Source: Acidobacteriota bacterium
GTDB taxonomy: Bacteria; Acidobacteriota; Vicinamibacteria; Vicinamibacterales; UBA2999
Assembly: GCA_020851325.1 (NCBI GenBank)
Contig: JADZCY010000050.1
Span: forward strand, 1 to 35,263
DNA: 35,263 bases
Direction: 5' to 3'
The notes under the pieces are model-generated. The model worked only from the letters and a program-made list of their open reading frames with translations, had not been told where the DNA came from and searched no databases. This document shows, piece by piece, positions 20,285-21,773 of the stretch. The translations under genes were made by a program, and so were the position numbers. How positions within the stretch are numbered: the first letter of the stretch is position 1; each line of letters opens with the position of its first letter.

Positions 20285-20641
20285 GGGGGCGACCTGGCTT
20301 CGACGGGGAGGCGGAATCGTGGAGCGCGTGCCGAGGATTCCATCTCACCCTCGTTAATCCGTGGTGGAACACAACGTAACTGCGGAAGCAGACTACGCTC
20401 TCGCTGCTTAATAACCAGTGAGCGGTCACCCTGGGAAGGCCTGCGGCCCAGGGAGGACCGTCATTCAGCAGGCTGGCCGTGATGTGCCGCTCCGACGCAT
20501 CGTGGTGAGATTTATCGGGGATGGCGGCCGGGGCGCTTGGCCTCGTTCAGAACCGGTCGCGACATCAGAATGAGGACACGCACGTAGGGGTCTGCGACGA
20601 CGTTTTCTCGGACGCGGGTTCGACTCCCGCCGCCTCCACCA
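20285..20641 (+). ncRNA. ssrA: tmRNA (transfer-messenger RNA)
   Basis: 5' GGGGGCGACCTGGCTTCGACGGGG and 3' GGACGCGGGTTCGACTCCCGCCGCCTCCACCA; 7-bp acceptor stem (GGGGGCG/CGCCUCC); tag ORF GCG GAA GCA GAC TAC GCT CTC GCT GCT TAA = AEADYALAA*. Confidence 0.97.
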
Positions 20642-20752: not shown

Positions 20753-21037
20753 TCACCGTGAGAAGAAGTCAACGCCAGTTCCGCCACAGCGGAGACAGAG
20801 GTCGCCTCCCCACTCGTGATCGGCGCAGACAGGACACGCCACGGTAGCTCCCGTCCAGCGTTCGTCAGTTGAGGGGACTCGCTTGATTCCTCGACATGTA
20901 GGGCAGACCGCGCCGATCCCGCGACACAAACGGCACGGACGATCGGCCTTCGATCGCGATTGACGGGCACTACCCTTGGAAGGACGCCTCACAGCTGGAG
21001 AATCTGGCCGTACGAGAGCCTCAAGTCTTCTTCCCAC
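20753..21037 (-). CDS. Small Cys-rich (zinc-ribbon/DnaJ-like CxxC) protein
   Basis: CRLCRGIGAVCPTCRGIKRV...CPVCADHEWGGDLCLRCGGTGV; GTG start; same frame runs back into the PIN C-terminal remnant. Confidence 0.45.
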   Translation of the reverse strand: MGRRLEALVRPDSPAVRRPSKGSARQSRSKADRPCRLCRGIGAVCPTCRGIKRVPSTDERWTGATVACPVCADHEWGGDLCLRCGGTGVDFFSR

Positions 21038-21076
21038 ACCGAGGCGTGGCAGATCCTGTGAACGAGTAGGCGGCGC

Positions 21077-21192
21077 GCCAGCCGCGATAACCTTGGCCTT
21101 CAGTTTGGCCGCTGGGAAGACACACCGGCGACCAACACCGACGTGTCAACGACGCCTCGGCGCGATGGACGGCGTTCATGCCTTGGCCGCAA
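21077..21192 (-). pseudogene. Internally deleted PIN-domain gene remnant downstream of MerR-like gene
   Basis: Minus strand 21153-21121 reads VVDTSVLVAGV (PIN N-terminus); 21118-21077 reads FPAAKLKAKVIAAG (like PIN C-termini ..DFP..LKAKVIAP) in a different frame; middle of domain absent; possible TTG start at 21192 overlapping the MerR-like gene end. Confidence 0.6.
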
Positions 21193-21718
21193 CCGATATC
21201 TCCGGACAGCCGCGCATCCTGCGGGACTGCTTGACGACGTTGAGGATCTCGTCGTCCGACATCACCGGCATCTCGCGGGCCGCGTCGCGGACGCTCTGGA
21301 GGAACTCCCGCTTCCAGCCACGACGCCGCCGTCCGGGCGGGAGGTCCTTGGCGACCTCCGCCAGTGGCAGTCGCGCGTCGAGCTGCTGACGAAGCATGCC
21401 GACGGGCACGATGATTCCGACCGGAGGCAATCCGGGGCGCGGGCTCGACTCGATCCGAACCGACGCGCGCTCCTTTGCAAGGTTCGTCTGGTTGGCCAAC
21501 GCCTGCACGAATCCGGTCAGGTACGCGGTCGAGGCTCCAAGCGTCTGCTTGAGGTAGTACGCGCACTTGGCCTGCAGCAGCGTGTCGCGATCGAACCAGA
21601 ACGCCCTGCCGCGCCGCCTGGGACGAACCACGTTGAACTGCACGAGGTTCTGCAGTTCCTTCGGCGGCACCTCCGCCACGACGGACGCTTGCTTCAGCTT
21701 GAGTTCGGACGTGTGCAT
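21176..21718 (-). CDS. MerR-like HTH DNA-binding protein (putative antitoxin/regulator)
   Basis: ASVVAEVPPKELQNLVQFNVVRPRRRGRAFWFDRDTLLQAKCAYYLKQTLG resembles MerR-type wHTH; SD GGAG 7 nt upstream. Confidence 0.65.
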   Translation of the reverse strand: MHTSELKLKQASVVAEVPPKELQNLVQFNVVRPRRRGRAFWFDRDTLLQAKCAYYLKQTLGASTAYLTGFVQALANQTNLAKERASVRIESSPRPGLPPVGIIVPVGMLRQQLDARLPLAEVAKDLPPGRRRRGWKREFLQSVRDAAREMPVMSDDEILNVVKQSRRMRGCPEISVAAKA

Positions 21719-21744
21719 GGCGACGCTCCATAATTACCATCTAT

Positions 21745-21773
21745 ATTATAGCCCATATATCATCTCGGAACAA
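21745..21773 (-). promoter_or_regulatory. Sigma70-type promoter for the MerR-like gene
   Basis: Minus strand TTGTTC (21773-21768), 17-nt spacer, TATAAT (21750-21745); CTATA-T-TATAG dyad (21741-21751) overlaps the -10. Confidence 0.6.

Follow-up and report, generated by a model that had tools for sequence, protein, structure and literature searches.

A probable disarmed PIN-MerR toxin-antitoxin pair in an Acidobacteriota bacterium and one-sided decay of the PIN gene among its relatives

Introduction

The window analysed in this study is a stretch of 35,263 nucleotides of DNA from an Acidobacteriota bacterium. On its minus strand, an intact gene for a MerR-like protein is directly followed by what look like the two ends of a PIN-domain gene, which raises the question of what this pair once was and why only one of its genes is whole. 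On the basis of 33 cases, Makarova et al. (2009, PMC2701414) predicted that PIN-MerR pairs form toxin-antitoxin systems. With a probability of roughly 85%, we read the locus as a disarmed PIN-MerR type II toxin-antitoxin unit, in which the PIN protein was the harmful half and the MerR-like protein an autorepressing antitoxin, and from which only the toxin has been lost.

Results and Discussion

Two ends of a PIN gene behind an intact MerR-like gene

The features of the locus are as follows.
21176..21718, minus strand: MerR-like gene, putative antitoxin and autorepressor; open frame of 180 codons with its ATG at 21718
21102..21177, minus strand: PIN N-terminal remnant with the first catalytic Asp in VVDT; profile match E 9e-7
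21116..21123, minus strand: deletion junction GTGTC/TTC; shorter than in intact pairs by 295-307 nt, with a frameshift
21071..21118, minus strand: PIN C-terminal remnant, the FP..LKAKVI piece, with the sequence FPAAKLKAKVIAAGAP

The stop codon of the MerR-like gene lies at 21176-21178, and the PIN remnant begins directly behind it. The frame of the N-terminal remnant, in which PIN residues are recognisable over 21121-21177, reads ERRPSRRGVVDTSVLVAGVSSQRPN and is ended by a premature TGA past the deletion junction. Two bases past the GTG of VAGV, a different frame reads FPAAKLKAKVIAAGAPP, which is the C-terminal remnant. Both pieces had been proposed in a preliminary description made from the letters alone, and both were borne out when motif matrices for the two PIN ends were built from 21 intact PIN relatives, with sixty random 35-kb Markov sequences of the same composition as the chance level. 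The N-terminal motif (21121-21159) scores 37.5 bits, against 11.4 for the next site in the window and 18.0 for the best random site; the C-terminal motif (21074-21118) scores 32.4 bits, against 8.2 and 20.3, respectively. The two motifs adjoin, in the order and position demanded by the relatives. Both fragments have matches among PIN relatives, and in no relative was the short junction found within an unrelated gene. A gene remnant that ORF callers cannot see is thereby recognisable by its two ends.

A small cysteine-rich frame at 20753-21037 (minus strand), with CxxC repeats and a DnaJ-zinc-like appearance, is in frame with the C-terminal remnant. Its GC content by codon position (0.64/0.67/0.54) differs from that of the adjacent genes, which the MerR-like gene resembles (0.67/0.46/0.85). 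The idea that the PIN protein of this lineage ended in a zinc ribbon, with the remnant frame running into this ORF, was rejected on that codon make-up and on a best relative of only E 0.002 in 99 genomes.

Size and consequence of the deletion

Comparison with intact MerR-PIN pairs from related genomes had been proposed as a check on the locus. Whole-genome searches of relatives yielded such pairs in G057 (MerR-like protein 59% identical) and G014 (48%), and then in G135 and G536. The intact PIN protein starts with RRGVVDTSVLVAGI and terminates in DFPQ.RL.AKVI.P. The G057 and G014 PIN proteins match PF13470 (PIN_3) above its cut-off, with E-values of 7.5e-15 and 6.5e-17; for TIGR00305, the G014 protein scores 30.2 bits against a cut-off of 29.15, and the G057 protein, at 20.1 bits, falls below it. 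The PIN model resembles VapC structures. From the VAG codons to the FPQ codons, three intact pairs have 300, 309 and 312 nt and the window has 5 nt, so that the loss is 295-307 nt and not divisible by three. The missing part therefore corresponds to about 98-102 residues, fewer than the 110-130 first estimated. Since the window keeps both PIN ends without the middle that lies between them in the intact pairs, one internal deletion of the nuclease core, as originally suggested, explains the locus. The deleted part held the E of EY, the D of PDPxD, the Asp of ADFI and most of the PIN fold, and only the first Asp (VVDT) of the acidic active site is left. A loss of about 300 bp that removes the core and the later active-site acids and shifts the frame would have left the toxin dead, and the antitoxin gene intact and still expressible.

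The endpoints of the deletion can be bounded by relatives only in size, because the nearest one, L025 (77%), has a PIN tail that is replaced after ..ADFITTLNP, so that the exact junction base is not fixed. Any microhomology at the junction looks to be one or two bases at most. The remnants are still well conserved and the deletion is therefore probably recent; the intactness of the window's MerR-like gene may be due merely to this.

A deletion produced by the assembler, in an organism whose PIN gene is intact, would be conceivable in a draft of 458 contigs with 5.2% contamination. We consider it very unlikely, as direct repeats of at least 12 bp that could mislead an assembler are lacking around the junction, relatives L061 and L043 carry comparable internal deletions, and the assembly contains no intact PIN relative elsewhere. 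With an intact PIN protein as the query, the sole match in the whole genome is the window locus, interrupted by a stop, and a whole-genome search found no second copy of the MerR-like or the PIN gene.

A family of pairs with one-sided decay

The first genome scan, with the MerR-like protein of the window alone as the query, found no relatives. In a second scan, an alignment of eight MerR-like proteins was run against a collection of 84,980 species and returned 32 loci, all in Acidobacteriota. A further survey covered 399 genomes belonging to one class, with PIN and MerR-like alignments as queries in turn, and added loci; 60 distinct loci remained after removal of duplicates, again all in Acidobacteriota. 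Genes were called intact or broken by profile coverage and open frame, not by activity. On this basis, both genes are intact in 30 of the 60 loci, and the MerR-like gene is intact with the PIN gene broken or absent in 19, the window among them. Where the MerR-like gene is whole, the PIN gene is thus broken or absent in about two loci in five. A 20th candidate with an intact MerR-like gene, L045, was left out since its PIN gene is cut off by the end of the contig. Five of the 60 loci hold a MerR-like fragment with a PIN fragment or none, and five hold only a PIN gene (three fragments, L092 and L094). An intact PIN gene beside a broken MerR-like gene was found in none of the 60 family loci. L092 and L094 were considered as exceptions and rejected since, judged from their sequences, they are distant PINs with a Phd-like gene of their own upstream. 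Both genes are decayed in L004 and L116, with fragments in L117, L118 and L120.

The imbalance of 19 to 0 over all loci has a probability of 4e-6 under equal risk. The PIN gene is also the shorter target of the two. The fairer count is that of the 399-genome survey, because the first scan used a MerR-like query; in that survey, searched with both proteins, the imbalance is 9 to 0 (sign test, p = 0.004). These are counts of loci, whose shared history is handled by the tree test only (see below). The source genomes are mostly draft metagenome assemblies, and single lesions could be assembly errors, though hardly all 19. Searches elsewhere gave no match by tblastn of the MerR-like protein against plasmids, none by tblastn of the PIN protein against phages and none to the family in PADLOC; PHROGs gave only a weak match, between the helix-turn-helix of a single relative and a recombination directionality factor. 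Some genomes carry two pairs, of which one is whole and the other has a broken PIN gene: G135 (L026/L027), G611 (L083/L095) and the PMOK genome (L063/L062).

The PIN lesions

All lesions are different, and they are scattered over the MerR tree. Internal deletions are found in the window, in L061, where the deletion is in frame and starts within about one codon of that of the window, and in L043. L027/L041 has lost nearly the complete PIN gene and adjoins a transposase-like frame. In L056, the PIN gene is replaced, and the MerR-like frame continues into an unrelated downstream frame to give a natural fusion of 444 codons from the start. The PIN gene is absent in L113, and its tail is replaced in L025/L070; of the 19, L025 is the most doubtful case, as its four acidic positions remain. 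Frameshifts at differing positions account for L044, L051, L052, L060, L062, L071, L084, L085, L087, L088, L095 and L110. On the MerR tree, the broken state requires at least 16 changes, 9 of which are forced by well supported branches, and the broken loci are no more clustered than shuffled labels.

The first lesion lies in PIN codons 24-50 in 10 of the 17 loci in which its position was scored (the window, L025, L027, L043, L044, L051, L052, L060-L062, L071, L084, L085, L087, L088, L095 and L110), where 18% is expected (p = 2e-4); this region also varies in length among intact PINs. Such clustering, together with several single-base indels, two of which fall in short A or G runs (L062 and L087), is what one might expect if the broken frames were programmed frameshifts or alternative products and not dead genes. 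This explanation is scarcely credible, since the lesions differ in position, sign and length, some are large deletions or replacements, and close relatives have an uninterrupted frame (L064 for L062, and L079 for L088). In the window, frameshifting cannot restore the PIN protein because the coding DNA itself is missing.

In the otherwise intact PINs of L042, L055, L057, L058, L059, L063 and L064, the last conserved Asp is replaced by Ala (AAFI in place of ADFI). This change may mean altered or lost activity, so that not every copy classed as intact is certain to be active.

The MerR-like protein: fold and constraint

The MerR_1 profile matches 22 of 47 family members (best E 6e-6), and the protein of the window itself falls below the cut-off (E 0.043). 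The family has an N-terminal MerR-type winged helix-turn-helix, as indicated by these profile matches and by the match of the model to MerR structures. In the AlphaFold2 model (pLDDT 81), some 100 residues of strands and helices come after the winged helix-turn-helix. The helix-turn-helix begins near residue 8 without an extra N-terminal domain, and the additional domain is C-terminal. Against the PDB, the sole match below E 0.001 is CvkR (7xn2; E 4.6e-5, TM 0.50/0.59). As regards the long antiparallel coiled-coil helix by which classical MerR proteins dimerise, the model shows two strands followed by a helix at residues 106-123, a part modelled with mixed confidence, and CvkR matches better than CueR.

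Judged by substitution ratios, the MerR-like gene is under purifying selection. For the window, dN/dS is 0.12 against the nearest relative, L025; nearest-neighbour values are 0.08-0.19 where the PIN gene is broken and mostly 0.06-0.16 (up to 0.27) where it is intact, each value being an average over a whole branch that cannot date the PIN loss.

Promoter and putative operator

Upstream of the MerR-like gene, the following elements were found.
21745..21773, minus strand: sigma-70-like promoter, TTGTTC-17 nt-TATAAT; read from the sequence, not listed by the automatic scan
21732..21760, minus strand: putative family operator covering the -10 box, with the core GCTATAATATAGA at 21740-21752, a retained right arm (tggtaatt) and a degenerate left arm

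An SD-like GGAG precedes the window's MerR-like gene. The earlier claim that the partner gene, its promoter and its SD had all survived holds for the whole MerR-like gene, the GGAG and the -35 and -10 boxes, but the left arm of the operator palindrome has degenerated. The core of the window contains a perfect TATAAT, and the left arm is not complementary. Across the family, the palindrome TCTAANNTTTAGA is matched at 8 or more of 11 positions within 34 nt of the start in 49 of 50 MerR-like genes. Its outer arms are partly complementary, with covariation above chance at only a few positions. The core stands where the -10 box would be, and many loci have TTGAC farther upstream with roughly the usual spacing. 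In type II systems, the repressor ordinarily binds the promoter of its own operon, and on this ground we infer that the MerR-like protein represses its own transcription through this palindrome.

The quality of the palindrome is alike in broken and intact loci (mean of 9.9 and 10.0 of 14 pairs, respectively). Together with the purifying selection on MerR-like genes beside a broken PIN gene, this similarity speaks for a reading that would supplement the loss of a toxin rather than replace it: the MerR-like protein may be kept afterwards for a function, as anti-addiction against an incoming mobile toxin, as protection against a paralogous pair or in the regulation of other genes. The genomes that hold an intact and a broken pair together (see above) would suit such a role, and orphan antitoxins of Klebsiella were proposed as anti-addiction genes (PMC7192599). 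We regard retention for a function as possible, though on balance improbable. In the window's genome, neither gene has a second copy. A genome-wide regulon was sought there with the operator consensus, and no site within 3 mismatches was found, a weak test in that its own degenerate site was missed too. The existence of loci with both genes decayed indicates that the MerR-like gene is eventually lost as well.

A probable disarmed toxin-antitoxin unit

In intact members, two small co-directional genes overlap or abut, with the putative antitoxin gene first. We propose that the MerR-like protein binds the PIN nuclease and would thereby neutralise the toxin, and that a MerR-like dimer binds the palindrome over its own -10 box, which would keep the operon repressed. 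In 18 other loci, the PIN side alone was likewise damaged or lost, whether through frameshifts, further deletions, replacement or a changed tail. Loss of a toxin would be tolerated or favoured and loss of an antitoxin beside a live toxin would be lethal, which would account for the repeated loss on one side. What the sequences show is the deletion, the family, the asymmetry, the operator motif and the constraint on the MerR-like gene; that the PIN protein is toxic, and that the MerR-like protein neutralises it, binds DNA and represses its own operon, we infer.

Which gene of a pair is the toxin and which the antitoxin is usually settled by cloning. Here, 19 natural lesions, all different and all on one partner, are genetic evidence as to which half is harmful, and the one-sided decay points to the PIN protein. 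The pattern by itself does not tell whether the orphan MerR-like gene is of any use. What it shows is a constraint on one partner from which the other has repeatedly escaped. The naturally disarmed loci form a set for asking what an antitoxin does after the loss of its toxin.

Relation to known systems

The pair is similar to VapBC in that a PIN-domain protein with a VapC-like toxin fold is encoded behind an antitoxin gene for a DNA-binding protein. VapB antitoxins have other DNA-binding folds, e.g., of the RHH, AbrB or Phd type, whereas the antitoxin here would be a MerR-like protein of 180 residues. No database model names this MerR-like partner. The PIN-MerR pairs of Makarova et al. (PMC2701414) likewise consist of two genes, one for a MerR-like DNA-binding protein and the other for a PIN-domain protein, and were predicted to be of type II. 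Their MerR partner is described as truncated and as having a small extra N-terminal domain, whereas the Acidobacteriota family has its helix-turn-helix at the N-terminus and its extra part at the C-terminus.

CvkR (PDB 7xn2, PMC9938897) is a MerR-type repressor of type V-K CRISPR-associated transposons that controls cas12k and tnsB and is described as dimerising through strands and a short helix (PMC9938897). It is the best structural match of the MerR-like model and also has a palindromic site at the promoter; on the other hand, the identity is 14%, and its operator is AnnACATnATGTnnT where that of the family is TCTAANNTTTAGA. On a broader reading, which we hold to be unlikely, the pairs form a toxin-antitoxin family specific to Acidobacteriota whose MerR antitoxin is CvkR-like. 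The PIN gene would be destroyed repeatedly and the MerR-like protein retained under selection as an independent immunity protein or repressor, and an origin shared with the CvkR-type transposon repressors would be suggested.

Orphan antitoxins, i.e., antitoxins without their toxins, have been described in Klebsiella and E. coli (PMC7192599, PMC10790755); in E. coli, many orphan toxins were reported as well (PMC10790755). Those enterobacterial surveys recorded a missing partner across many families, whereas here every toxin lesion of one family was read at the sequence level. Among the papers searched, none brings together the words toxin-antitoxin, MerR, VapC and Acidobacteri, which is a weak negative. 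What is new is this Acidobacteriota family with its operator, its predicted CvkR-like fold and its counted one-sided decay; PIN-MerR pairs as such were already predicted.

Genomic surroundings

One further feature is given for context.
20285..20641, plus strand: tmRNA gene ssrA, tag AEADYALAA

The disarmed pair starts about 0.4 kb past the 3' end of this gene. The 3' end of tmRNA is a frequent integration site; a repeat of the tmRNA end, as expected of an insertion with attachment repeats, was not found in the window. Around the tmRNA gene, synteny is seen on the left side only, in one relative of the same genus. The intact pair of G014 adjoins a recombinase-like frame (L003:1997-3025, minus strand) and a tRNA-Ser-like sequence at about 2070-2155, read by eye, surroundings suggesting that this pair may be mobile.
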